Source of the DNA: Nymphaea colorata
Lineage: Eukaryota; Streptophyta; Magnoliopsida; Nymphaeales; Nymphaeaceae
NCBI RefSeq assembly: GCF_008831285.2
Contig: NC_045150.1
Location: 17,062,600-17,126,599 of the forward strand
Length of the DNA stretch: 64,000 nucleotides
Direction of reading: 5' to 3'
Of the stretch, positions 1-59,339 are shown piece by piece. A model generated the notes under the pieces. That model searched no databases. It worked only from the letters and a program-made list of their open reading frames with translations, and was not told the DNA's origin. The first letter of the stretch is position 1. Each line of letters begins with the position of its first letter. Both the position numbers and the translations under genes were made by a program.

Positions 1-858
1 AATTTTTGCTGATTTCAAATGATGAATAAAACATGCCCTTAACAAATGATCCTAAATTCATCACAGAAAATCCAACGAAATGATAATTAAAAAAGGTCCA
101 ACCCATCACCATTTCAACGTCCAATCTCTACATAGAACGATGTCTGCGAATTTCTTTACAAGATGACAAGAAGTCAGCTATTGCACGAGAGAAACAACAA
201 GTTCCAATACAAAATTTAAGAGCAATGGTTTTCTTGTAATTATCAGACAAATTGGAGGTTATAACCATTGTCACTGTACTTTACCTTGTTAGCTAGCTAG
301 CAGAACAAGGATTAATATACAGGTAAACAGTCACCCCCTCCTCCAAGGAGTGAGGAGAAACATGTAACTTGCTTATGCATTTCAAAGTCTAACGGTAACA
401 TCATCAAGTAGGAACATAAAACATAATGGTCCCCTTTTCACTCATTTACCATAATAAGAGGAAATTTCCAATGTTCTTGTCATACTGGCACATAACAAAC
501 AAAAGATGTAAAACTAATTAACTACTCTTAACAATGGATTTGGATGGCTTGACTAATTAAGTGTTGCTTAGATTTCCTGCTTGGGATCAAGTTGCCGTTC
601 CCAGATGACATCTTCCTTTGACATATCGGTCCACACTGATCTCCTTATCAGAGGAATAAGAGGTTAGACATTGTACTGCACAACATTAAATCACAACTCA
701 AGTGTATACGGAGACATCTCCACATCCTGACAACTATTACAAACAAAAAACACATCAGCGACAAACTAACCAAGAAGTTCAAAGCTCATACGCCAAAGGA
801 ACAATTCAAATCATGCATTGAAAGGTAGGGAACAAATTACAATCTCTACTTCCTTCTC
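1..858. repeat. 3' flank of CRK-A, duplicated downstream of CRK-B
   Basis: This stretch has no gene. It lies downstream of the CRK-A stop codon on the minus strand and is closely similar to about 30320-31290, the matching flank of CRK-B. The match shows that the duplication unit included DNA beyond the coding exons. It may hold the CRK-A 3' UTR, but no polyadenylation site can be assigned with confidence. Confidence 0.7.
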
Positions 859-2411
859 TCATGAGTAGTTAAAAGTTTCAGTAAGATGATGAATAAAACT
901 TTGAACCAACCCTGAGCTCGTTTGTGCTCCCAAAGAAAGGTTTCTGATTTTCTTGGTAGGGGGGGCAGGAGGCAAAATGGATGGAAGGATCCTGTTTTCA
1001 AGCATCGCAACAACCTTGGACATTTTGGTCCTGCTTGATGCATCTTCTTGAACACATGGCAGGCCAATATAGATGCATCTTAATATCTCGTCCTTGTCAC
1101 ATGTTCCTTCCAATATTTGATCCACAACTTGCAGTGCCTTGTTTTCCCCCCAAAGTCTCCATACCTAGACCAAAACAACATTGTTTGGATTATTTACTGG
1201 GAATGGACAACAGTTTTACCTATATGGTGAAGAGCTTTATTGGGTGCTGAAGATCAACAAAGAAAAGCAAATCCAAAATTACATCTGTATGTTCATGCAA
1301 TTCAAACAATAATACCAGTAATAGACAAAATGTGCCTACAAAAGAGTAAACGCACAAAAACAATGTTGATCACTTACATAATTTAATAGATTTTCATCAG
1401 CCTCTTTTTGGATTATGGAGAATTTTTTTTTTCCACTTATCATCTCCAGCAGTAAAACACCAAAGGTGTAAACATCTATCTTTACTGACACCCTTCCTTC
1501 AAGCAGATACTCTGGTGCCATATATCCACTGCAGAAAAAGATGAAAATCTGAAAAAAAACAAAAACTATTAAAGCTACAAGCGAATCTGCTTTCTTCTTA
1601 AGTTCATGAGCAAGTTCGCCTTCATGTAAATGCATTAGGTGCAACTTTAGTAGGGAACAGGAGAGACAAGATATTTTTTTGAAACAACCTAATTACATGA
1701 TTCAAGTGTGAAAACATTTGCAATGAGCATTGCCGAAAAGATTGATGCTCATCTATGCTAGTTGTCGATCATTTTTCGCTCCAATAGGAATTAAATTGAA
1801 GCATACAAATAGTAAGTTAGGATCCATGACAATAAATGTTCGAATCAATTTTTTGGCTGGGCGGTGAGCCATCACAGTTGGTAATATGGATAACTCTGGA
1901 ACTTTGTCAGAAGCTAAAAAGATACATGTTCCTTGAAGGCAAATGTATAGCAAAAACTTTAGTGAGGAAACGACTTGCTCATACAAATTCTGAACGAAAA
2001 AGTTATTATTCTTATTACTGTCCTGTATTCTAGATTATAGCCTTTTTAGGAGCCTATCTGAAAGCAAGCAAACAAGCCGGTTGGGATCTAATATGTGTGA
2101 TTGCTCCAAGTTCAGTTACAGTTCGGGCCGTCTCATCGTAACCCAGTTTTTGTTGGAAATGATTGAACAAAGTGAGCATAAAATGCAGATTTCCATGATT
2201 AAGATTATCTAGCAAACCTACATCACCGGGACAAGTTAATAGCAACCTATGGCTTACTCAGTTTGACAAATTCTGGTAACTGTAGTCATAGAGGAATCTG
2301 CCAGTTAAATTTGGGCTGTGGACGCTCGAATACTAATGTCGGTATACGATCTGAATTTTGCAAATGCAGTATCAGAAATTGCAGCAACAAGCAACAACCA
2401 ACTTACCGAGT

Positions 2412-2414
2412 TCA
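2412..2414 (-). other. Premature TGA stop in the CRK-A kinase domain
   Basis: In the activation segment the paralogue CRK-C reads E-T-I-E-I-M-G-T-R up to its exon end at 56919. CRK-A reads E-T-L-E-I-I-stop-T-R at the matching place, five bases before its intact donor at 2406-2401. The exon is 241 bases in both CRK-A and CRK-C, so this is a substitution rather than an indel. A translated product would lack APE, helix F and the rest of the C-lobe. Confidence 0.85.
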
Positions 2415-3480
2415 AATAATCTCAAGTGTTTCGGTTTGTGTTTGGTCTGTGTCGACAACCTTTGCAGTGCCAAAATCTGAGATCTTGGAGTTCATGTCTT
2501 CATCTAGTAAAATGTTGCTTGCTTTCATATCCCTGTGAACAATTGTCAGCCTTGAATCTTCGTGCAGGAATAAGAGACCTCTAGCTATTCCATTTATGAG
2601 CTTGAAACGTACTGGCCAATCCAATTGCATACACTTGGTTGGCTCCCCTTTCAAAGAAAAATAAAATCAAAGTTGAATTGTCCTTTTATTTTCTAGTAAT
2701 GCTAAGCAAATACGTAACGTTACAAGATAAAGTACAAAAACATTTCATGTTCAACCATTTTCTTATAAACCATGCAGCAATGTATGACTTTATATAACCA
2801 GTGGTGTAGCCAGAAATTTTTGGCTATGGAGCACTATTGTAAAAATTCTTATTTTGGAAAGGGCACAACATATATAAATAAATACATAATTATAAGACAT
2901 CGATGTAAAAATATGCAAAAATGAATAAAAATATTGTTGTTAGCATGGACAACTGCCCACACTGGCCTATATATAGCTCTGCTACTGCATGTGTAACATA
3001 ATAACTGCATATAACATAATAAAACCAGGGGGCACCAATAGTTATATATGCATCAATGTCTCGAAGTTTCCTGAACCATATCATTCTAGAATAAATTTTG
3101 ATCTTAGCGTGAGATAATTGAAAGAAATTAGCGAGATACTAATGCTAAGGTTATTTGCACAGTCTTTTGTTACGGAGGCCAAGCAAAACTCATGACGTTG
3201 ATATATTTATAAACCTGGTCGGGTTCGGATCCCTTGATTTTAAGCATTGCATCGCTGTAATAGATCTACAAACAAAGGAATTGGATACCCATCCGCTACA
3301 AGGTCCATGGTGGCCTTCCATAGTAAAAAATCATGTTTTTTCTCTTATCTTGCTTATATTTTTTTAAAAGAAATCCACTGGCAATACTTCCTTGATACAT
3401 CTTAAGTAATGGGTATGAATACTGAGATATAGGTACCAACATGGCAACGTTAAGAAATGTGAATATGAAGGTACGACAAG

Positions 3481-3504
3481 ATATATATATATATATATAT
3501 ATAT
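3481..3504. repeat. (AT)n microsatellite
   Basis: A run of 12 AT dinucleotides in the long fourth intron of CRK-A. The matching CRK-B intron (around 33250) has only a short remnant, so the tract expanded after duplication or shrank in CRK-B. Confidence 0.9.
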
Positions 3505-4470
3505 GCAAAAAATCAAAAAATCAAAAATCAAAAATATGAAAGCAACATTTAAATAAAGAAGTGATTTTCAATAAAAACATTACATGTTAATAAACAATAA
3601 CTCTAAAAATAGAATGAAAAATGAGTTGAAAAAAATTGAATCACGTAAAATTAAATAGTTTGGATCATTTTTTATTTTAAAAGTACCTAAGTGTATCCAA
3701 CTACCCACTTTAGGTACGGATACATCAACATAGTATGTGAACCTTATTGAAGTACTTATGTGACTTATGATACATACTACAGTCTACAGTCCTACTTGCT
3801 CCATCAGCAATGATAAGATCTCTCTGACAAACTAAAGTTTGCTAAAGAAATTATCTCTAACAAGAAAACCGAAAACCAGGTGCTGTTACACTGCTATTTC
3901 TTCTTACAAGTTACAGGTGTACTATGAGTCCAACCTCTCCGTTTCTGAAACTCACCTCCAGATGGTCTCCCTGTTCAATTTTGTCCAAGGGATATACATT
4001 TGAAAAATCATACAGAGTAAAATGGTAAAAGGGCATATCTTATACGAATAAACAAATTAGTGGAAGACTACCCATGTGAAAATAAACAGAATTTGTGGAC
4101 CTGTATGGACAGCTGCCTACACATGCACACATGTTATGTTCTCATGCTCAGAACGACACACTTTGACTCCTTTTGCCACTGATTGCCAAACACCTTCACT
4201 GGAACTCTCCTCTTGTCATGAAACAGTCAATTTCCCTACCTACTATGAGTAGCAGAGTCGCCATTTAAAATTTTCTTATTTGCAAATTAATAATTTTTAA
4301 GTGCCCCATAAAATTTGAAATTTAAATTACAGTTCACCCTAAACCACAAATTTGTGGCTTGCCATTCCCAGTCGCCACCTCTCACAACATCTCTCTGGTT
4401 CCACCACTACACTACAAGACGACCACTTCAGGCAAAAGAAAGCATAACGAGCAAAAGCTAAAACAAACTT

Positions 4471-4472
4471 GC
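4471..4472 (-). other. GC-type 5' splice site, CRK-A intron 4
   Basis: The exon ending at 4473 is followed by GCAAGT where CRK-C has GTAAGC at the same position (57436-57431). GC with otherwise good consensus is the known minor GC-AG class, so splicing may still work. The exon length of 211 bases matches CRK-D exactly. Confidence 0.65.
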
Positions 4473-6119
4473 TAAAGAGAAAATTGTCGAGACTAGTATT
4501 CCGCACATACTCATAGATGAGTATCTTCTCTTCACCTTCCATAAAGCCTCCTAAAAGTCGGACAAGATTTCTGTGTTGAAGTTTAGTGATTGTCTGCACT
4601 TCATTGCCGAATTGCTTCGGACCATGCCCTGTATTGCGCGACAGCCTTTTTACAGCTATTTCTTGACCATCCAGTAGCTGGCCCTGACAATGCCATGGTT
4701 AGTGAAGGAACTTAGCAAGCTTAGTAACTCGGATTCAACAGCAGCTCTCTCGTTTTCCCAACTGATGTGTCATAAATTTTCAAGCAGAGCCAGGAAACTG
4801 AGTATAAAAGACTAGTGCACATATACCCTGTAAACTGCACCGAATCCTCCCTCTCCAAGCTTATTTTTGGGTGCAAAATCATTGGTGGCAGCTCTGACGA
4901 TAGCCAGATCGAGTGTTGCACCATCTATCGCATCTGCTCTCCTCAAAGCTGAAACGAACTCCACAAATAAACAAGGTAAATAGGCTCATTGCGTAATGGT
5001 GCCAGAGGTCCATGCGAGGTCAATTTGGTTTTCCCTTTCATGCTCTGGATCCAGGTCTAACAGCCGAATCCAAATCTGATTTTTAAACTGAATTCATACC
5101 AAATTACAGACATTGAGTATAGAATATTTATTTAGAATGATGTTTTGAATCCAAATCTGATCAATATTTACATAAATCTGAATTTGAATCCAAAGAGATG
5201 TCATTTCTTATGTTCGAATCCGATCTGATGTCAAAATTTTCTCTTATCCTATTTCCTTTATGTGGTTCGATCTTATGTTATATATAAATTGGACCTATTG
5301 GCATGCTTGGCAGAAGCCCACACATGCACACATCTTATGTTGCCAAAATTTAATGTCTGTGTATGATCTGCACAAATGATGCAACTTTTCTTGGATAGGT
5401 CATCTTCATAACAAGGAAGCAAACGACGACTTTAACGTGCGGACCAGAAAACTTGTTGGTTGTGATTTGGTTGACATAAATCTGGACTATGGATGGAAAA
5501 TTGAAAGCTTTGTCACAGACGATTATGAATATGGCATGCAATGATACATCCGTTCTTCCTATAGGATCATGTAAATGTATTATACAGTACGGTAAAGTTA
5601 GTTTTCTCGAGTAAATTTCAATAAATTTCAAAAGAAGTTAAAAAACTGAAAGCAAAATGTAAATTCCATGAAAATAAAAAATTGGTTAGTACTGAAAAAT
5701 GTGAAAAAACCTGAAGAAAACACTGAAAAACAAAATGGGTTTTCCGTAACACTGTAGTGAGATACTTGAACGGATAAACCGGTGTTTAAACCAAAACCTA
5801 TCTCTGTCCCTCTCTTTCTCTGATTTATAATGTTCCTTTTTTTACTAACCTCGTTGTTCCGATCCGTCATCTTCTTCTTTCTTCCTCTGCAATCCGCGAG
5901 GCTTCAACGTATTTCTCCAAAGGCAACAAAATTCTCTCATCCACCAGTAAAAGCCGCAAATTAAGCAAGTAATAACAACCACAATCATCATGACGGAGAT
6001 GCCGGTTATGATATACATGCGTTTTCTCCCTATACTTTTCTGATGGCCTGCATATATAAAATATTCTTGTCATATGAATTGGGGAGGGGGAGGGAGAGAG
6101 ACAGAGAGAGAGAACCAGC

Positions 6120-7021
6120 CTGATGTAGTAGTGTTGGATCCAGCATTGGGCGGAGGAGTTAATACGCTTGGCTTTTGACTTGATAGAGGTGCTGAATAGG
6201 GTGTAAGAGGTGGGCTTGGCCTTGATTTTTGATGGAGGGGGTGGGTTTGGAGTTGTGGTTCCATAAAAGAGCACTGTATCGTACCTCAAACGGCAACTTC
6301 CCCTGACAAATTCACAACCGATTGAATGTTGGCAAGTATCCGACGTAGGAATCTGGGATCTGGTGGTTTCCAAACACTTTTGGCAATTAGCAAGGCTGGT
6401 ATCCCTGGTGCACTGCATCAGTCCGTATATCGTTTCTTGGCCATTCCACGGGATGGATCCCGTGGCAAACAAGGGCGTTGAACGCCCTGTTGTCGCCTGG
6501 GAAATCAGATTCTGAAGCAGACTGCTCAACTTCTCGTTGAACGAATCATTAACGTCAGGTGAGTTCCAAAGATGAGCCCCAGATTGATCGACATCGAGGT
6601 GGCCAAAGAATTTGGTGTTGGAGTAGCAGAGCTGGCACTTTTCATACCATATGATGGCTTCCATGGGGTAGGTGCAGTCTGTGTCGTTGACCTTTTGGGT
6701 CGAAGTGTCGATGCACTCCTTGCAGGTTTGCTTATCAATGTCACCCCTGCACAGCACCATGGCATACACTCTCTCCGATCCTTCACCCTCTGGGGCATTG
6801 GAGAAACCAAGGGGATTGACATCCGCTATCAAGGTGGCAAAGGCGAGGTGCATGTTCGTTTGAAACTTGCTTCCGTCAATGTAATTGATGTCTCTGTTGC
6901 AGTAGCTATCAACAAAGTCATTACTGCTCATTGCCTGGTCGACCCGGAAGGAAAGGAGGAGGAAGAGGACGAGGAGGGGGAATCCGATCTTCATCCTTAG
7001 CACCATTACAGAGTAACCCAT
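6120..7021 (-). CDS. CRK-A exon 1: signal peptide and two DUF26 domains
   Basis: Extracellular exon of CRK-A. A hydrophobic leader (MKIGFPLLVLFLLLSF) precedes the first DUF26 domain. Both domains carry C-X8-C-X2-C, the gnk2-type disulfide signature. One residue is unusual: the common QLRYSNT stretch reads QLCYSNT here. The linker after FYG is proline-rich, but it reads well only in a different frame from the DUF26 part. The exon end at 6120 is inferred from phase with the membrane exon and uses GC rather than GT as the donor. Confidence 0.85.
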
Positions 7022-30319: not shown

Positions 30320-31289
30320 TAATCTTTGCTGATTTCAAATTATGAATAAAACATGCCATTAAAAAATGCATCCTAAATTCATAACAGAAAATCCAACAAA
30401 ATGATAATTAAAAAAGGTCCAACCCATCACCATTTCAACGTCGAATCTCTACTTAAAGCGATGTCTGAATTCCTTTAAATGTTACAAGATGACAAGAAGT
30501 CAGCTATTGCACGAGAGAAACAACAAGTTCCAATACAAAATTTAAGAGCAATAGTTTTTTTGTAATTATAAGACAAATTGGAGGTTATAAGCATGGTCAC
30601 TGTACTTTACCTTGTCAGCTAGCTAGCAGAACAAGGATTAATATACAGGTAAACTGTCACCCCCTCCTCCAAGGAGTGAGGAGAGGCATGTAACTTGCCT
30701 ATACATTTCAAAGTCTAATGGCAACATCATCTAGTAGGAATATAAAACATAACGGTTCCCTTTTCCAATGTTCTTTTTACTTGTCATACTGGCACATAAC
30801 AAACAAAAGATGAACAAACTAATTAACTTTCCTCCTTATCTTTCCTGCTTGGGATTGAATTGTCGTTCCCAGATGATATCTTCCTTTGACATATCGGTCC
30901 AATGTACTTTCACATGAAAGCTTGTGCCAAATGCACAAGAACCACTTCCCGTCAAGTGAGAAACTAATTTCCCATCTCAGTGGTAAATATTGAAAAAGAT
31001 TGGGTAGGGAAGTACTCATTTCATTGAACTGAAATATAAATATACATTATGAGAATGAGAAGGTATACATTGATCTCTTCATCAGAGGAATATAAGGTTA
31101 GACATTATACTGCACAACATTAAAATATACGGAGGCATCTCCACATCCTGATAACAATTAGAAACAAAAAACACATCTGTGACAAACTAACCAAGAAGTT
31201 CAAAGCTCATGTGCCAAAGGAACAATTCAAATGATACATTGAAAGGTAGGGAACATACAATCTCTGCTTCCTCCTCACGTGAGTAGTTC
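30320..31289. repeat. 3' flank of CRK-B, duplicate of 1-858
   Basis: Begins with near-identical text to base 1 onwards (tttgctgatttcaaat) and runs collinear with it up to the last exon. It marks the left end of the duplicated CRK locus at about 30320. An extra stretch of about 150 bases at 30890-31050 is missing from the CRK-A flank, where 600-640 is shorter. Confidence 0.75.
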
Positions 31290-34223
31290 AAAGCTTCAGT
31301 AAGGAGGTGAACCAAGCTCCGAACCAGTACCTGATATAGTTGAGCTCGTTTATGCTCCCAAAGAAAGGTTTCTGATTTTCCAGGTAGAGGGGGCAGGAGG
31401 CAAATTGGATGGAAAGATCAAGGAGCCGTCATCGCAACAACCTTGGACATTTTGGGCCTGCTTGATGCATCTTCTTGAACACATAGCAGGCCAATATGGA
31501 TGCATCTTAATATCTCATCGTTGTCACATGTTCCTTCCAATATTTGATCCACAACTTGCAGACCCTTGTTCTTCCCCCAAAGTCATCATACCTAGACCAA
31601 AACAACAATGTTTGGATTATTTACTTGGAATGGACAACAGTTTTACCTATATGGCGGGGAGCTTTATTCGGTGCACAAGATCAACAAAGAAAGCAAATCC
31701 AAAATTACATCTGTATGTTTATGCAATTTAGACAATAATTCCAGTAATAGACAAAATGTGCCTATCTTAAGCACTCTGGAACTTTGTCAGAAGTTAGAAA
31801 GACACATGTTCCTTGAAGGTAAATGTATAGAAAAACTTTAATGAGGAAACGACTTGCTCATACAAATTCTGAATGAAAAAGATAGGAATCTTGTTAGTGT
31901 CCTGTATTCTAGATTATAGGCTTTTTAGGTGCCTATCTTAAGCAAACTAACAAGCAGATTGGGATCTAATATGCGTGCTTGCTCTGAGGTCAGTTACAGT
32001 TCGTTCCATCTCATGGTAACCCAGTTTTTTGTTGCAACTGATTGAACAAAGTTGGCAAAAATGCAGATTTCCATGATTAAGATTATTAGCCAACCTACAT
32101 GACTGGGACAAGTTAATAGTAACGCATGGCCTAATCTGTTTGACAAATTCTGGTAACTGTAGTCATGGAGGAAGCTGCCAGTTAAATTTGGGTTGTGCAC
32201 GCTCGAATACTAATGTCGGTATATGATCTGAATTTTGCAAATGCAGTATCAAAATTGCGTCAACAAGCAACAACCAACTTACCGAGTTCCCATAATCTCA
32301 AGTGTTTCGGTTTGTGTTTGGTCTGTGTCAACGATCTTTGCAGTGAAATCTGAGATCTTGGGTTCATGTATTTACCTAATAAAATGTTGCTTGCTTTCAG
32401 ATCCCTGTGAACAATTCGCAGATGAGAATCTTCGTGAAGAAACATAACTCCTCTGGCAATGCCATTTATGAGCTTGAAACGTACTGGCCAATCTAATTGC
32501 ATATGCTTGGTTGGCTCCCCTTTCAAAGAAAAAATAAAATTAAAGGTGAATTGACCTTTTCTTTTCTGGTAATGCTAAGCAAATATGCAACGTTAAAAGA
32601 TAAAGTACATATACTAGGCAACACTTTTACTCTAGTAAATTGCAAAGCTACACTTCTTCCTTTTTTATAAACCATCAAGTTGATGCAACTAGTGATGATT
32701 GCATATGACATAATAAAACCTGGGGGCACCAAATAAATTTTGACCTTAGCATTAGATAAAGGTAATTCGTTTCTGATGCAACCCCTGCTGGGGGTTGGCC
32801 CTGTTTTATCAATAAAATTGAAAGAACGAAGGTGCTAGAGGGAAAAAAAAAAGACGAAACCTATACAAACAGAAAGAAAGAAGGGCCATTTTCAAGAACA
32901 ATGAAAGAAATTAGGGAGATAATAATGCTAAGATTATTTGTGCAGTCTTTTGTTACGGAGGCGTGCAAAACTCATGACGCTGATATATTTATAAACCTGG
33001 CCATGTTGGTATCCCTTGATTTTAAGCATTGCATCGCTGTAATAGGTTCATAAACACAGGAATTGGATACCCTTCGACTACAAGGTCGATGGTGGCCTTC
33101 CATAGTAGAAAAAAACTCTTATCCTGCTTATATTTTAAAAAAATGTACCACTGGCAATACTTTCCTGATACATCCTAAGTAATGGGTATGGGTACAGAGA
33201 TATAGGCAGACACAACAGCATTGGGAAATGTGAATATGAATGGACGACAAGATAGCTAGATATATGCAAAATTGAAAAAAATCAAAATAAACACAATATT
33301 TAAATAAACAAGTGATTTTAAATAAAAACATTACATGTTAATGAACAATAACTCTAAAAATAGAATGAAAACAGAGTTGAAAAAAGATGAATCATGTAAA
33401 ATTAAGCAGTTTGGATCATTTTTTATTTAAAAAGTACTTAAGTGTATCCAAGTACCCACTTTAGGTATAGATACAACAACATTGGTATGTGGACCTTATT
33501 AAAGTACTCATGTGACTTAGGATACATACTACAGTCCTACTTGATCAGCAGAGATAAGATCTCTATGAACAAACTAAAGTTTGCTAAAGAAATGAAATCT
33601 CTATACAAGAAAACTGAGAACTCGGTGCCGTTACACTCCTATTGCTTCTTACAAGCTACAAGTGTACTATGAGTTCAACCTCTTCATTTCAGAAAGTCAC
33701 CTCTAGATGGGCTCCCTCTTCAATTTTGGCCAAGGGATACACATTTGAAAATCATACACATAATGATTACAGCCGGGGCACTAGGCAAATAATTAAAGGG
33801 CATACCTTATACGAATAAACAAATTAGTGGAAGACTACCTACGTGAAGACAAACAAAATTTGTGGACCTGTATACACATGCTAAGCTCTCGTGCTCAAAA
33901 GGACACACTTTGCATCCTTTGGCCACTGATCGCCGCGCACCTTCACTGGAAATCTCTACTCTTGTCATGAAGCACTCGATTTCCCTACCTACTATAAGTA
34001 GTTTCACAAGTTTAAAATTTGCTTATTTGCATATTAATAATTTTTAAATGCCCCTTAAAATTTGAAATTTAAATAACAGTTTGCCCTCAACCACAAACTT
34101 ATGGCTTGCATTGCCAGTCGCCACCTCCCACAACATTTCTTGTTCCACCACTACACTACAAGTAGACCCCTTGAGGCAAAAGAAAACATAACGAGCAAAG
34201 GCTAAAACAAGCTTAGCAAAGAG

Positions 34224-34230
34224 ATGAACG
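34224..34230. other. Deletion junction in CRK-B (loss of N-lobe exons)
   Basis: Left of the junction the sequence follows CRK-A up to about 4478 (aaacaagcttagcaaagag). Right of it the sequence follows CRK-A from about 5768 (acggctaaaccggtgttta). The intervening 1.29 kb, with two exons, is absent. The bases at the joint are short and ambiguous, consistent with end joining. Confidence 0.85.
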
Positions 34231-34530
34231 GCTAAACCGGTGTTTAAACAAATTCCTCTCCCTCTCTCTCTCCTCTCCTTTGTCTTTCTCTGATTCATAA
34301 TGTTCCTTTTTTTACTAACCTCGTTGTTCTGAACCATCATCTTCTTCCTTCTTCCTCTGCAATCCGCGAGGCTCCAACGTCTTCCTCCAAAGGCAACAAA
34401 TTCTCTCGTCCACCAGTAAAAGGCGCAAATTAAGCAAGTAATAAGAACCACAATCATCAAGACGGAGATGACGATTATGATATACATGTGTTTTCTGCCT
34501 GCATATATAAAATATTCTTGTCATATGAAT

Positions 34531-34563
<33 letters not shown>

Positions 34564-34564
<1 letters not shown>

Positions 34565-34569
34565 CTTGC
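34564..34569 (-). other. GC-type donor of CRK-B intron 1
   Basis: The exon ends TCAG and the intron begins GCAAGT, the optimal GC-AG donor. The matching sites of CRK-A (6119-6114, GCTGGT) and CRK-C (58413-58408, GCTAGT) also start with GC, and the three exons join the membrane exon in the same phase. The GC donor therefore appears ancestral to this subfamily. Confidence 0.6.
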
Positions 34570-35911
34570 CTGACGTAGTGTTGGATGCACCATTTGTTTG
34601 AGGGCTTGAATCTGATGGAGGTGGTAGAGGAGATGTGCTTGGGCTTGGAGGTAGTGAATTAGAAGATTGGGTTGATGCTCTTTGTCTTGAATTTAATTTA
34701 GGCTTTGGAGTTGCTGGGGAACCATAAAAGAGCTCCGTATCGTACCTCACACGGCAACTTCCCGTGGCAATTTCACAGCCGTGTGCGTTGCGGGATCCAG
34801 AACCTGGTGTCATTCAAACACTGCTTGCAATCAGCATGGTTGGTATCCCCAGTGCACTGCACCAGCCCGTATAGTCTGTAGATCATTGTAGGTGATGTTG
34901 CCAGTAGCAAACATGGACATTGGAAACATTGAAAACATTGAATTAGGCTGTGTTGTCGCTTGATCAGTGAGATTCTTCAGCAGACTACCCAACTCTTCAC
35001 TAAAGGCTTTGGGCTGTTCCATTTTATCATCGATCCAATACCAAGAACCATAATCCTCGACATTGAGGTGACCAAAGAAGTTGGTGTTGGAGTAGCGGAG
35101 CTGGCAGTGTTCATACCATATAATGGCATCCATATTATAAGGACAGTATCCGACGATTTGTTGGGCAGAATTACGGATGCACTCCTTGCAGCTATCCTGG
35201 CCAATGTCACCCCTGCACTGCACCAGGCCATAGACTGTGTCCGAACCTTTATCCACTGTGGCTTGGGAAAAACCAGCAGATCTGTCAGTGAAGGTAGAGA
35301 AGAGGCTGGCATAATTACTTCAAATGGACTTCCATCCGTGTAATTCGCAGTAACGCTGCAGCGGCTGTCAATATAGTCGTTCGTGCTCATTGCATGGTCG
35401 ACATGGAAAGGAGGAGGAGGAGGAGGGAGGCATCAAGATGGAGCAAGGGGAAGGATTAAGCCATATAAAAAAATCTCCGCTGGGGAGCTTTGGCTTATTT
35501 AACGATAAAATAAAAACTAGTTCCAAACGCGTACGTCTTGAGGGGCTGCCTCCCAAAATCACCTCAAAGGGGAAGGAAGATTTACTGTTCTACGGCAGGG
35601 GTTGCTCTGATCAGGAAGCCCATGGCCCCAATTATAAGATGTTGCTCCATGGGTTGGCATTCTTGAATCCGCTACCCATTCAATTCAAACAAGCCAATTC
35701 TGGAAACTAATTCTGGTCATAGTTGTTAATTGAAAGTGCTGCTGAGCACAATACAGATTCAAAAGAGCTCGGCATGATTTGAGTTTATGTCAAATGAGCA
35801 GCCATATTGATATACCGTATATCAATTGATACACACCAGCTTTTATTGGTTAGTACGGATCGAGTTATCTTGCATTTATATTTAAAATTCATTTATAAGT
35901 ATGTGCTTAAA

Positions 35912-45957: not shown

Positions 45958-47440
45958 CTTGACCAAGGAAAACAAACAGAAAATGGAAGAGGGGGCATGC
46001 AATTGGACCATTTAAACCGTCGGATTTGCAATTGATTGAACCGTCCAAATAAATAGCATACTTATTGTTTTTTATTTCTTTGTTTTTTGCCGCTGCTAAA
46101 AGAAGGAAGATGGGGCATGCACAGCCCTTCGTTCTCCCCTTTCTCGCTCAGTGGGAGTAGTTGCTTTGACCAGAGTTCCAGTGCTTCCTTGTTTCACTGC
46201 TGTCCTCGGGCATAGATGGCACAATTTTTTGTTTTGTTGATTTAAATATCTTTTTCTCCTGGCCAACACAGGTTTTCATTTGCTGCATGGTGTCTTCCAC
46301 TGACAATTTGTATTAGCTATGGCAAAGCAAGCCGAAGATTTTTGAAGATTGCAGTTGATTTAGGCCAGATTTGGGACCAAAAAAGTTATGTAGGATGGGG
46401 ATGACACAGCGATGAGGGAAGGACCATCGATAGGCATTGTGTTAGTTGCCGAGGCAGTACCCAAGTCTGCTAGCCGCTGCAGACGTAGTCAGAGAGAGAG
46501 GAAGAGGCAGAGATAGAGATGGTGAAGATGACGCAGAGAGAAGAGACAGAGAGGAGAGCAGACAGATAAGAAGAAGAAGATGATGCTTTCTCGAATCACA
46601 GGCACTGATGCTATCTCGCATGGAGATCTTGTTGAGAACCCAGAAAGGAATAACCAATCCTCGCTTGAAGATCTTGCTCTGCCATCAAGTCTCCAAGTAA
46701 AACTGACACCCTTACTTCCTTCTCTACTTTACTGCAATGTTTGGGGTTTAATGAGCACAAACTTTTTGAAACAGGAGCAATCATCTGGAGTTGTTGAGTA
46801 CCAAACCTTAAATATTTGCTTTTTCAAGTGACAACTAGCATCATTAATCACATATAGATTGATTCTTGATCAACAGGGCCTAAAAACATACGAATTATAA
46901 AAAATTAATGCGAAGCATGCATTGTGGCCTTTATGTAGCTTGATTGAAATTAATGATGGAAGATTAATGGGGTCAACTAATTGATCATGAAGATAAGACG
47001 CATAGTGGCTAGTACCTATGTTGGTAATCCAAGTATATGGGGTGAGATCAAGAAAGATAAGTAGATAAACCTATTAGATTGACCATGGGAATGGATACAT
47101 CTTTGAGAAGTAATAGCGACTAAGTAAATTGATCCCTGGTGAAAGCCGGAGCAACAGAGACATTTTCTATGCACCTTTTGAAGTAAAATGAGTCTTAGGT
47201 GCTCTATGCTTCAAAGACTGATTTCATGGGGCAGAGTTGGGGTTTATTCATGAAGACAATGATAAGGTGGATACCTATGAAAAAGATAACGTTTTCTTCA
47301 GTATAACAGATCCAATAAGAGTGCCCAAAAGTAGTATCAGTACATTGGTACTGAATCACTTGATAAGATTTACCATACATAAAATTACAGTTAGAACAGC
47401 TTGCTGCAATGCTAGATATGGTACACTCGAGAAGCCAATA
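45958..47440. other. Intergenic region, no gene recognised
   Basis: Includes a purine-rich GA tract (46490-46575) followed by an open frame 46580-46831 and another at 47237-47449. Neither resembles a known protein, and splice context is unconvincing. A transcribed 5' leader near 46560 is possible but not supported. Confidence 0.5.
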
Positions 47441-49195
47441 CTAACGTGATATTTGCTTGCCTATATGCTTAATAACATTAACACCTGCTATGCACATATT
47501 TCATCTCAAGAAAATCTTGGAAGCTTGTAACAGAAAATTTTCATTGATGTCTTCTATCTATAGTCAATAGCAACATTTGGCCATGATGTACTCATTAACA
47601 GAACGAAGAAATGTTCAACGCGCTTTTTTCTATCGGTTCTGCTTGGTGCCAGATTGGTGCAAATATTAGGCCGTGATGGAAGCATTTTCTTTTTCCGCTA
47701 TGCTATACCATTACTTCTAAAAACACGATTCAAATATCACAAATCCAACCAAGGCACTACAATAGCTGAACTAAATTAGAAGTTTGGAGAGAGCAGAATT
47801 TAGTTGCATTTATAACAAAACCACATGGTTGGGATCGGTCATTAGCATGAGGTGAATCTTTTTTTGGGTGAAAACTCACAGTAAAGCTGAATCGATCAAG
47901 AGCGAGGACGTGTAAGCTGATTGTTTCGTTCTCTTTCCCTGTGAGACCAAATGGTGAAATTAAATCTTGCAACTAGAAGATTTCTGTTCTTGGCACCCAT
48001 TACGTGTTAATGTTCATTCAACATGTGGTATCTGGCTGTTATCTGCCTTTTAAAAATAGTTAAGCTTGGTAGCTTTAATAGCTCCTCGCGAATTGGCTAC
48101 TCCAAACAGCAGTACGTTAACTCTTCCAAGACTAACATGATATTTGCTTGCCTACATGCTTAATAACATTGACACCTGCTATGCACAGATTTCATCTCAA
48201 GAAAATCTTGGAAGCTTGTAACAGAAAATTTTCATTGATGTCTTCTGTCTATAGTCAATAGCAACATTTGGCCATGATGTACTCATTAACAGAACGAAGA
48301 AATGTTCAACGCGCTTTTTTCTATCGGTTCTGCTTGGTGCAGATTGGTGCAAATATTAGGCCGTGATGGAAGCATTTTCTTTTTCTGCTATGCTATACCA
48401 TTAGTTCTAAAAACACGATTCAAATATCACAAATCCAAGGCACTACAATAGCTGAACTAAATTAGTAAGTTTGGAGAGAGCAGAATTTAGTTGCATTTTA
48501 ACAAAACCACATGGTTAGGATCGGTCATTAGCATGAGGTGAATCTTTTTTTGGGTGAAAACTCACAGTAAAGCTGAATCAATCAAGAGCGAGGACGTGTA
48601 AGCTGATTGTTTCGTTCTCTTTCCCTGTGAGACCAAATGGTGAAATTAAATCTTGCAACTAGAAGATGCTCTGTTCTTGGCACCCATTACGTGTTAATGT
48701 TCATTCAACATGTGGTATCTGGCTGTTATCTGCCTTTTAAAAATAGTTAAGCTTGGTAGCTTTAATAGCTCCTCGCGAATTGGCTACTCCAAACGGCAGT
48801 ACGTTAACTCTTCCAAGACTAACATGATATTTGCTTGCCTACATGCTTAATAACATTGACACCTGCTATGCACAGATTTCATCTCAAGAAAATCTTGGAA
48901 GCTTGTAACAGAAAATTTTCATTGATGTCTTCTGTCTATAGTCAATAGCGACATTTGGCCATGATGTACTCATTAACAGAACGAAGAAATGTTCAACGCG
49001 CTTTTTTCTATCGGTTCTGCTTGGTGCCAGATTGGTGCAAATATTAGGCCGTGATGGAAGCATTTTCTTTTTCTGCTACGCTATACCGTTACTTCTAAAA
49101 ACACTATTCCAATATCACAAGTCCAACCAAGGCACTACAAAAACTGAACTAAATTAGTAAGTTTGGAGAGAGCAGAATTTAGTTGCATTTATAAC
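47441..49195. repeat. 690-bp tandem repeat, copies 1, 2 and left part of 3
   Basis: Units start at 47441, 48132 and 48819 (ctaac followed by tgatatttgcttgcc), giving periods of 691 and 687 bp. Copies 1 and 2 are nearly identical over long stretches (for example ggccgtgatggaagcatttt). Copy 3 is cut at 49195 by Copia-2 and resumes at 54053. No protein is encoded in any frame. Confidence 0.92.
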
Positions 49196-53858: not shown

Positions 53859-54052
53859 TGTTGAATTAGAAGAGTTTATGTTTTTAGGTGGTTCTTTGTA
53901 ATATTTAATAGTTAGGAGGTCTCATTAAACATTTCTCTATTTTCTGTTGATGTACTTTGTAAATCTATCTTCAACCCTAATCTCTTTATTATGGAGATTA
54001 GGTTTAGTAATGAAGTTACGTTTTCTCTCTCAAAGGCTGCCGGCTGTAACAA
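53859..54052 (+). repeat. Copia-2 3' LTR
   Basis: TGTTGAATTAG to GGCTGTAACA, 194 bp, after the purine tract gaaggggag and followed by ATAAC. Confidence 0.93.
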
Positions 54053-54850
54053 TAACAAAACCACATGGTTGGGATCGGTCATTAGCATGAGGTGGATCTC
54101 TTTTTTGGTGAAAACAAGCTGTAAAGTGAATCAATCAAGAGCGAGGACGTGTAAGCTGATTGTTTCGTTCTCTTTCCCTGTGAGACCAAACGGTGAAATT
54201 AAATCTGCAACTGGAAGGTGCTCTGTTCTTGGCACCCATTACGTGTTGCCTTGAGCCTAAAAAACATCAGATCATTCAACTGTACAATCTCATTATTTCT
54301 TGATAAACGTACGATGCGTGACCTCCAACAGGGTTGCATCCGAACTGAACTGATAAATCAGTCATTGTCGCTTATCTTGTAAACCAAGAAGCAAATTGGA
54401 ACCTATTGTGACTCATTAATATTTTCCTTCATAATTAATCAAGACAACTAAAGCCATGGTGATGTGAACCGCAAATTCCTCAATACAGAATACTGTATAG
54501 GCATATAATAATTTGGCTTGGTAGGCACCTATTGTACAAGTGAACTTTTAGATCACTTAGATTCCCCTTTTTATGGCCTTTCAGTATTCTCTTCTGGTTT
54601 TCACTTTCGGGCAAGCTCTCAAAGTTCAAATGTTCACAGAACGAAGTCTGAAAGCTAATGGTGCTTTGTTCTCTATGATCTCCCCTATTTCAATACTGTA
54701 TTTGGGCAATAATTAAAAATACTTTCCTTGTTACAACATGTGGTATCTGGCTGCTATCTGCCTTTTAAAAATAGTTAAGCTTGTAGCTTTAATTGCTCCT
54801 CACAAATTGGCTACTCCAAACAGCAGTGCGTTAACTCTTCAAGACTAACC
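54053..54850. repeat. 690-bp tandem repeat, right part of copy 3, with an extra segment
   Basis: 54053-54246 continues copy 3 directly after Copia-2. Similarity then stops. It returns at about 54735-54850 (acatgtggtatctggctg onward), matching the end of copies 1 and 2. The intervening 54247-54734 is absent from copies 1 and 2, so it is either an insertion here or an ancestral piece they lost. Confidence 0.8.
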
Positions 54851-55538
54851 CAATTTTTTCTATCCTCCACTGAAAGGAGGTCATCAATGTACACAAACAG
54901 AGTTCTATATAGATAAATTTGCAGTCTGTGCTTTCTCAAGACTATCTATTTATGGTGTTAATGACTATAGGATGATTGAATTACCTTTCAGATGATCCAA
55001 ATGTACAAGTGATATGTGCTTAAGAGAATAAGAAGGCATACATTGATATCATCATCAGAACAATATGAGCTTAACATTGTATTGCACAACATTATACCAC
55101 CACTTTAAGAGGCATCTCTGCGTCCTACTGAAACTGTTACAAATAAAGAACAGGAATTCGACAAACTAAACAAGAAGTTCACAGCTCATACACCAGAACA
55201 GGATACGGTGCCTTGAAAATCAGGGAACAAATTGCCATCTCTACTTCCTCCTCTCAAGAGTCAAGAGTATTTCAAACCTTCACTAAGCAGATGAACTGAA
55301 CTCTGAACCAGTCCCTGATATAGTTGAGCTCGTTTGTGGTCCCAAAGAAAAGTTTCTGATTTTCCATATAGAAGGGGCAGGAGGAGAAATGGCTGAGAGA
55401 AGCAAGGAACCATTTTCAAGCATCGCAACAACCATGGACATTTTTGGTTTGCTTGATGCATCTTCTTGGACACAGAGCAGGCCTCTATGGATGCATAGAA
55501 GAAGCATCTGATCCTTCATGCATGCTCCACTTGGCTCG

Positions 55539-55594
55539 GGGGATATAGCTCAGTTGGTAGAGCTCCGCTCTTGCAATTGGGTCGTTGCGATTAC
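55539..55594 (+). pseudogene. trnA-UGC: Plastid-derived trnA-UGC 5' exon plus start of its intron
   Basis: 55539-55576 matches my recollection of the 38-nt 5' exon of plastid trnA-UGC (ggggatatagctcagttggt at the start, anticodon region ttgcaa at the end). It continues into what I recognise as the intron beginning (ttgggtcgttgcgattac). The 3' exon is absent, so it is not a functional tRNA gene. It is one half of a composite organelle-DNA insert inside the last exon of CRK-C. Confidence 0.88.
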
Positions 55595-55664
55595 TCATAC
55601 TCGAACGAGATGCTCTAGCACTGCTTCCTAAGAACAGCGTGTCTACCGATTTCACCATGGCGGC
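55595..55664 (-). pseudogene. trnL-UAG: Plastid-derived trnL-UAG, nearly full length, opposite orientation
   Basis: On the minus strand from 55664: gccgccatggtgaaatcggt, then anticodon loop cttaggA (anticodon TAG) between ctgtt and agcag, a long variable arm, and a T-arm cut short (one G missing in ctcgttcg). The acceptor 3' strand is missing. It matches plastid-type tRNA-Leu(UAG) as I know it. A copy routed through the mitochondrial genome cannot be excluded. Confidence 0.85.
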
Positions 55665-56153
55665 ATCTTAATATCTCATTTTTGTCACATGTTCCTTCCA
55701 ATATTTGATCCACAATTTTCATAGCCTTGTTCTCCCTCCAAACTCCCCATGCCTACACCAACATAATAGTTTTGTTATTTACTCTGGAAAGCTGTGACAA
55801 CAATATGGAGGATAATTTTTATTGGAGGTGTGGAAGGCCGACAATGAAAGCAATGCCTTAATTAATCTAACATGCTCCTTGCTTGAAAATGGTCTAGACA
55901 ACAAGTTGTCCAAGATATGGTCTTCTATGAACAATAACACGAGTAACAGACAAAAATGACCCACTAAATTGCAAAAGCACAAGAACAATGTTAGTTACTT
56001 ACATAATTCAATAGATTCTCATCTGTCACTTGTTGAAGAAGAGAGAAATTCCGTTTTCCACTTATGTTTTCCAGCAGCAGAACACCAAAGCTAAAGACAT
56101 CGATTTTTACTGATACCTTTCCTTCAAGCAGATATTCCGGTGCCATATATCCA

Positions 56154-56155
56154 CC
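56154..56155 (-). other. Mutated 3' splice site before the APE exon of CRK-C
   Basis: CRK-A reads tttttctgcag before TGGATATATGG (acceptor at 1530-1529). CRK-C reads tttttctgcgg at the same place. Everything around it is conserved, so a single A-to-G substitution removed the invariant AG. Confidence 0.85.
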
Positions 56156-58413
56156 GCAGAAAAAGATAAAACCATTCTACTCAGCTTTGAAATTCGCTTA
56201 GTTGTTAAGTGCATGTGCAAGTTCGCTTTGTAGCAAGTGTGCTAGGTGCCACTTTAGACAGACGGGACACGTTATGTAACAAGAATTATTATAGTCTATC
56301 CTACTTCTTAACTTGTACCTCCTGTAGGAACTAAACCAAAGCATGTAAACCCTAAGTCACGATCCATGAGACCAAATATTCATGTCAGTTAACTGTAGGT
56401 CATTACGGTGGGCATTGTGGATGACTCTGAAACTTGGTATGTAGGTTAAAGAGACTTGTTCCTTAATAGAAAATAGAAAAAGCTATAATGGGAAATAAGC
56501 ACATATGAAATTCTGAGTGGAAAGATTATTTTTATATATATTTGTTTCTTACTATTATCCTGCATTCTAGTTCATAGCCCTTTTAGGTGTCAATCTGAAG
56601 TAAAACTAATCGACAAGTTGTCATCTGAGATGCCTGCTCTTCGGTCAGTAAAAGGCCGGGCCATGAAACATAGCAACTCAGGTTTATGTTGGAACTGGAA
56701 AAAAGAAGGCAACGTGCGGACTTCCGTGATTAAGATTAGCCAGCTAACCTACATTATGGGGACAAGTATAGAAGTGGATGGCCTAATCTGTTTGAGGAGG
56801 AAGCCATCCATTAAAATTGAGCCAGGTGAATGCACAAACACTTAGTATCGGTATATGATCTTCATTTTTGCAACGGCAATTTAGGAAGTTGTGCAACAAC
56901 AGGGAGCGACCAACTTACCGAGTCCCCATAATCTCAATTGTTTCTGCTTGTGTTTGACCTGTGTTAAAGATCCTTGCTGTGCCAAAGTCTGAGATCTTGG
57001 GGTTCATGTCTTCATCTAATAAAACGTTGCTTGCTTTCAGATCCCTGTGAACCATTCTCAGCCGAGAATCTTCATGGAGATATAAAAGTCCTCTGGCTGT
57101 TCCGTTGATGAGCTTGGAACGTATTGCCCAGTCCAGTTGCAGACTCTTTGGTGGCTCTCCTTTCAAAGTAAAATAACATAAACGTAACTTGTGTTTTACC
57201 TTTCTAGTAATGTTAAGCTAATATGTAACGAATAAAAAATAAAGTACAAGATAATTTCAGATCAAGCAAATTAATAAGTAACACTTTGACCCAATCAAAT
57301 GGCAAAGCTAGATAGGCAACATTTTTTTGACATGCACTCCCTGTGAAAGTCATCGGCTGCCACCATTAAACCCTCAAACACCACCTTAATGATAAAACGA
57401 TAAGGAAACAAAAGAAAAAACAAGGAACAAGCTTACCGAAGAGAAAAATGTCCAGGCTAGTAATGCGCACATACTCATAGATGAGTATCTTTTCTTCACC
57501 TTCCATGTAGCCTCCTAAAAGCTGGACAAGATTTTTATTTTGAAGTTTCGCAAGTGTCCGCACTCATTGTGGAATTGCTTCGGCCCATTCCCTGTATTGC
57601 GTGACAATCTCTTTACAGCAACTTCTTGACCATCCGGTAGTTGGCCCTGACAAAGTGAGTGTCAGTTAAGGAAACAGACTTAGTAACCAAGTTTCAATGC
57701 CAGCTCCCTCTCCCTCCCCCTCTATCAATTTTCCTACTGTAGCTTCCCCAGATGTTATCTTTTTCAAACGCATGGACAGTAAAAGAGACACGATACCCTG
57801 TAAACTGCACCGAATCCTCCTTCCCCAAGCTTATTTGCCGCCGCAAAATTGTTGGTGGCAGATCTGATAGTAGCTAGATCAAATCTTAGTCCATCCATCA
57901 CATCTGCTCTCTTAACAGCTGAAATTATCTCCACTGTTAAACAAGGTAAACTGATGGGGAGTGTGTGCGTATGTGTATATATATCACAATTCAGTCAAGC
58001 CAGATGCCAGATGGGTAAAATTTAAAAATTATTGTTAAAATACAATAACTTTATTATACTTAGCGACCTTTTATATATAGCGCAGCAAAGACTTATGATG
58101 GCCTTAACAACATATATAATCCTTTTAGTGTTTAACCATTTTACATCCGGTAGCAGTGAATCTAACCAACCTTGTTGTTGTAAGGCCTCCTCCTCTTCTT
58201 CCATCCTCTGCAATCCGCTAGGCTTCATCTTCTTTCTCCCAATGCAACAAAACTCTCTCTTCCGCCAGTAAAAGACACAAAGCATGCAAGTAATAAGAAC
58301 CACAATCAAAACAGAGATGGCGATTATGACAAACATAAGCTTTCTTTCCTTGTTCCGCTGCCCTGCAAGTATAAACAGCTCTTGTTATGCCAGAGAGAGA
58401 GAGAGAGACTAGC

Positions 58414-59262
58414 ATGGCATAGTGTCAGATTCACCATTTGATGGAGGGCTTGAATTTGGTGGAGGTGGTGAGCTGGACTGAGGAGGTAGGCTTGGTGCTG
58501 TTGTGGTATCATAAAAGAGCTCTGTATCGTAGACCACCCGGCAACTTCCCATGGCAATTTCACAGCCGTGTGCAGCGTCGCAGGTGTTGGGATCTGGGAC
58601 CTGGTGGTATCCAAACACTGCTTACAGCCAGCAAGGCTGATATCTCCGGTGCACTGCACCAGCCCGTATGTCATCTGCAGATCGGTGTATGGGATGTTGC
58701 CCGTGGCAAGCATTAACTTTGCAGCTGGCTCTGTTGTTATTGTTGCTGCTAGAAAAGGTAGATTCTTCAGCAGTTGGCCCAACTTCTCGTTGAACCCTTT
58801 AATGTCTGTCACTTTATTTCTGGTCCAATACCAATTACCAGAATCATCCATGTTTAGCCGACCAAAGAAATCGGTGTTGGAGTAGCGCAGCTGGCATTTT
58901 TGATACCATATGATGGCATCCATTGTGTTGTGGCAGTATTTAACGAGTTGTACGGTGGAATTGTAGATGCACACCTTGCAGTCCTGTTGATCAACATCGC
59001 CCCTGCATTGAACCAGGCCATAGACTGTCTTCGATCCTTGGCCCACTGTGATGTTGGAAAAACCAATGAGAAGAGCATCTTTGTTGAAGGTGGAGAAGAT
59101 GGCCTCCATGTTCATCTCATACACGCTCCCAGCTGTGTAATTACCAGTTGTGGAGCAGCGTTGGTCGATGTGGTCATTGGTGCAGCTCATCGCATGGTCA
59201 ACATGGAGGGAAAGGAGGAGAAGGAAGAGGGAGAATCCAATCTTCAACCTAATGAGCCCCAT
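58414..59262 (-). CDS. CRK-C exon 1: signal peptide and two DUF26 domains
   Basis: Best-preserved ectodomain in the window. It is open from 59262 through the first DUF26 domain and most of the second. A one-frame shift near 58586-58591 moves the last conserved cysteines and the proline-rich linker (SLPPQSSSPPPPNSSPPSNG) into another frame. The junction to exon 2 is in phase in that frame only. Confidence 0.85.
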
Positions 59263-59339
59263 TACAGAATCGCTCGCTTCCTTGGCTAGTGGAAGGAAAT
59301 GTCTTGGGTTCCTTGGCATGTTTAAGAAAAAGCTCTAAA

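Follow-up and report, generated by a model that had tools for sequence, protein, structure and literature searches.

The last exon of a CRK-type gene on contig C13 of Nymphaea colorata carries a 170-bp insert, which is very probably a small complex NUPT, two scraps of plastid DNA having sealed a break in the exon. The insert occupies positions 55497-55666 of the window, the 64,000-nucleotide stretch analysed here (C13:17062600-17126599), and has no counterpart at this point in any of the 30 paralogous exons compared. It combines a trnI-trnA fragment of the plus strand (piece A) with a trnL-UAG fragment of the minus strand (piece B).

The host gene lies on the minus strand and is composed of two DUF26 stretches and kinase exons (Pfam), an architecture for which we take CRK to be the usual label. 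Its first exon lies in an open frame at 58327-59334 (minus strand), which contains both DUF26 (Stress-antifung) stretches (PF01657, E = 1.3e-31). The upstream part of the last exon (55667-55754, minus strand, AWGVWRENKAMKIVDQILEGTCDKNEILR) presumably starts, on the 55754 side, at an AG found in the sequence, and the downstream part (55283-55496, minus strand) encodes CIHRGLLCVQEDASSKPKM...SSSA and a stop. The window belongs to an 18.0-Mb contig of a 407.8-Mb assembly of 783 contigs and holds at least three CRK-type loci, at about 600-6800, 31000-35300 and 55283-59334.

The empty site can be read from the gene family. At least 30 CRK last exons exist besides this one, and all 30 were examined, 28 in fetched stretches and two in the window. 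When the two flanks of the insert are joined, 30/30 align across the joint and none has an extra base at it; most of them read TATGGATGCAT/CTTAATATC across it. The weakest paralogue (L048, 69.7% identity) reaches by BLAST only 3 bases beyond the joint, and another (L022) has a few small gaps just to its left. Indeed, CRK coding resumes at C-IHRGLLCVQED precisely where ...KNEILR-C stops, and the flanks show no loss or repetition beyond a possible 4-bp GCAT. The closest paralogues are the same two on both sides of the insert, namely a copy on C9 (94.0% over 117 bp on the left, 96.8% over 94 bp on the right) and a copy at C13:17.134 Mb (94.8% over 97 bp and 94.5% over 91 bp, respectively). The alignments thus indicate that this is one exon of one paralogue lineage with one insertion. 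As to the distribution of the family, 22 of the 30 other last exons are located on C11 (14) and C13 (8), in a clustered arrangement with some broken members.

A 301-bp query across the insert splits into three match sets, corresponding to piece A (query 16-115), piece B (114-185) and the right flank (178-301), the last of which falls in CRK exons. Among the 40 of 67 candidates that were scored, no match covers both pieces. Chance similarity is excluded by the best E values outside the window copy, 5.6e-35 for piece A and 2.9e-24 for piece B. Furthermore, the junction between the two pieces occurs a single time in the searchable (unmasked) genome when up to 3 mismatches are allowed. Insertion of a transposable element is not supported, as no scored match spans both pieces and the joint is found once. 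Both pieces are incomplete, and neither ARAGORN nor Rfam calls a tRNA in the window or in the insert, which counts against the complex-NUPT reading. The first-pass annotation had already placed trnA (plus) and trnL-UAG (minus) side by side in this exon, an assignment that the matches to C783 and to tRNA-Ala genes bear out, but its 126-bp length has to be replaced by 170 bp, piece A starting at about 55495, some 44 bp further left than the block it implied.

Piece B (55593-55664, minus strand, about 71 bp) begins with the first base of the tRNA gene and ends near the base of the acceptor stem, lacking roughly the final 7 bases. It aligns with the trnL-UAG of contig C783 over 72 columns, with 2 substitutions and 1 missing base. 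From its size (159,842 bp) and content, we take C783 to be the plastid genome. ARAGORN identifies tRNA-Leu (tag) in the C783 donor copy (L002:1619-1698), Rfam also calls a tRNA, and the gene adjoins a ccsA-type gene, seen as a Cytochrom_C_asm frame. Piece A was not found in the 3.5 kb fetched around this trnL-UAG, so that the two pieces are not neighbours in that part of the plastid contig. Piece B alone has 28 other matches in the genome, and none of these trnL loci (0/28) has piece A within about 300 bp or more on each side. Its sequence is distinct from all 28 copies, the plastid contig included.

Piece A (55495-55594, plus strand, about 100 bp) passes from the trnI-trnA spacer (about 55495-55538) via the 5' exon of trnA (about 55539-55576) into the start of the trnA intron (about 55577-55594); these exon limits, as well as the plastid origin of the spacer and intron, are presumed from the usual layout of the operon. 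In the plastid contig, the stretch where the donor of piece A should lie reads N throughout, and this donor was thus identified only via other nuclear copies, a tRNA-Ala test and the usual operon layout. For that test, the 25 bases from 55539 were compared with bacterial genomes, where at least 117 stretches hold them exactly. ARAGORN reports tRNA-Ala in 109 of the 117 listed, tRNA-Met in 2 and no tRNA in 6, which identifies the 25 bases as the 5' end of tRNA-Ala. Six cyanobacterial stretches were run whole through ARAGORN; all of them (6/6) have a tRNA-Ala where the match lies, and in two of them, both from Pseudanabaena, tRNA-Ile(gat) stands just upstream of tRNA-Ala(tgc). The succession of tRNA-Ile(gat) and tRNA-Ala(tgc) is the order of plastid rRNA operons. 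The alignment of the insert to the plastid genome and to the CRK last exons, proposed with the first-pass annotation, matches piece B to C783 and shows the empty site, but meets N at the plastid trnA.

Piece A alone has 9 other genomic matches, with identities of 94% on C4, 97% on C8 and 89-90% on C1, and piece B is absent from the fetched stretches of all nine (0/9). The C4 and C1 copies extend beyond piece A on both sides, upstream into what is presumably a trnI 3' end and downstream into what we take to be trnA intron sequence. Nuclear trnI-trnA copies are located at C4:7354397, C8:10588637, C1:28668036, C12:17245232, C2:3834572 and C9:2346620, and their identity to piece A ranges from 81 to 97%, which suggests that they were not all inserted at the same time. 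An Rfam group II domain V match in the C4 copy (L005:577-617, 40.1 bits, gathering score 53) was dropped as evidence for the trnA intron, being on the opposite strand from the trnA piece. This domain V is of the plastid ndhA/ndhB type and is separated from the trnA piece by about 80 bp, and the C4 insertion may thus be another case of fused plastid fragments.

Each of the three joints has two bases in common between the joined sequences, AT, AC and GC, respectively, a degree of sharing that easily arises by chance. At the left joint, the exon reads GGATGCAT and piece A starts with ATAGAAG, with AT common to both; in the C4 and C1 copies the base preceding this AT is a. Between the two pieces, at 55593-55594, AC fits both, as judged by sequence comparison. 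At the right joint, the GC of GGCGGC fits the exon sequence GCATCTT, in agreement with the GC that the first-pass annotation had noticed there. No exon sequence is lost at the insertion site. Since GCAT stands on both sides, the placement of the 170 bp can slide by up to 4 bp, and this GCAT may be a 4-bp target site duplication or, equally, the sum of shared AT and GC.

The length of the insert leaves a remainder of 2 when divided by 3. Reading on from EILRC gives 15 residues (RHGEIGRHAVLRKQC) and then a stop, at 55615-55662 (minus strand). The predicted effect is a shifted frame and an added stop, so that the kinase would lack its C-terminal part. Independently of the insert, exon 4 (57510-57660, minus strand) carries a 1-bp frameshift; it appears as a one-base gap against a single paralogue, the in-window 4540-4700, and the open frame changes there. 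Since exon 4 is broken in addition to the last exon, the host CRK gene is, on this reading of its frames, a pseudogene. Open reading frames hint at a possible further frame change near the end of exon 1, where alignment with one paralogue is ambiguous, and it was left uncounted.

The two closest paralogues differ in extent from the host gene. The copies at C9:6.16 Mb and C13:17.134 Mb match it only over about 54052-56864, and they match each other past that limit (L001, C9:6159000-6168000, and L067, C13:17126000-17135999). Their shared 3' part comprises exons 6-7 and downstream sequence, and no exons 3-5 turned up in the stretches fetched; that of L067 extends just about 0.75 kb past the limit. 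A chimeric origin of the host gene at about 56864 was considered and rejected: 56558-57248, a stretch that spans the limit, is colinear with the in-window paralogue at 31.9-32.6 kb, and therefore it is the C9 and C13 copies that look 5'-truncated. The C9 copy has, besides, a 1-bp gap in its last exon. Elsewhere in the window, 47350-49195 is a repeated stretch with copies near 47.6, 48.3 and 49.0 kb, and it has sequence in common with the stretch that lies downstream of both truncated CRK copies (C9 and C13).

How the exon acquired these pieces could be explained in other ways. The first-pass annotation had proposed that two distinct CRK paralogues were end-joined around plastid filler, so that a homologous kinase segment is present twice, and a frame, EPSGACMKDQMLLLCIHRGL, does indeed stay open across the boundary between plastid and CRK sequence. 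However, the supposed second segment, EPSGACMKDQMLL, is one reading frame of the spacer within piece A, and the counterparts of this spacer at C4, C1 and C12 have no CRK-flank match in the 1.3-1.5 kb fetched. A hybrid exon was thus rejected on the flank identities, with the same two paralogues nearest on both sides, and on the empty-site alignment, in which 30/30 run through the joint; a joining of two paralogues is scarcely credible. What did hold from that proposal is the capture of two unrelated plastid pieces by end joining with microhomology, which our results support. A misassembly, in which plastid reads were misjoined into the CRK exon, would find its material in the many short contigs of this assembly with a plastid trnL. 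It is highly improbable, as the exon is otherwise continuous on both sides and piece B is distinct from the 28 other copies, a difference that speaks against plastid reads having been recently drawn into a chimeric assembly.

The two plastid pieces could also have been fused beforehand, for example as plastid DNA in the mitochondrial genome, and have arrived as one piece. The plastid rRNA-operon region, which reads N, leaves room for such a donor, but the joint is single in the searchable assembly, none of the 28 other trnL loci has piece A beside it, and a pre-existing fusion elsewhere in the assembly was not found when all 28 trnL and 9 piece A loci were checked; we consider this route unlikely. 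Finally, one end of piece B coincides with the first base of tRNA-Leu, and tRNA sequence is present in both pieces; piece B might therefore have been copied from a tRNA, or the scraps might stem from breakage at plastid tRNA genes. We regard this as very unlikely; if it were true, tRNA-gene breakage or tRNA copying would bias which plastid DNA reaches the nucleus.

The complex NUPT that we favour has its parallels in the literature. In PMC6215612, complex nupts are one of five classes of organelle insertions, with end-joining signatures at their joints, the inner joints only being analysed. The present locus resembles them in uniting two plastid fragments at a single site, the joints being blunt or having a few bases in common, but it differs from those described there in its very small size of 170 bp, its position in a coding exon and an empty site readable from 30 paralogues. 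As summarised in a review (PMC7037861), integration proceeds by 1-7 bp of microhomology or by blunt ends, chloroplast segments become linked either beforehand or in the course of insertion, and 45 organelle insertions have been recorded in 49 protein-coding exons of 34 genes. In the present case, the insert disrupts the frame and provides no usable exon. NUPTs are likewise described as fragmented, mosaic structures in PMC3989485, and the locus fits the descriptions given in the three sources. Plastid-derived DNA stands at a nuclear locus, on a contig of 18.0 Mb, with both pieces matched; the fragments are not contiguous in the plastid as far as it can be read, the plastid trnA locus being N; and the joints share only AT, AC and GC, with no loss of exon sequence.

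We infer from these observations that a double-strand break occurred in the last exon of one CRK copy. The break would have been patched with two unrelated plastid scraps, one from the rRNA operon (trnI-trnA), probably with the plastid as direct donor, and the other the trnL-UAG by ccsA. End joining would have linked the two scraps and attached them to the exon ends, and at each of the three joints it used, or at least is compatible with, 2 bp of microhomology. The resulting 170-bp insert would then have shifted the frame, introduced a stop after 15 residues and removed the C-terminal part of the kinase.

The general picture is unchanged by this locus, which is an ordinary break-repair scar and an added case in a well-described class. 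It provides a small, fully readable case of organelle DNA serving to patch a broken exon, for which 30 paralogues with an empty site are available as controls. Moreover, it illustrates that an open frame through a plastid spacer can be mistaken for a gene segment.
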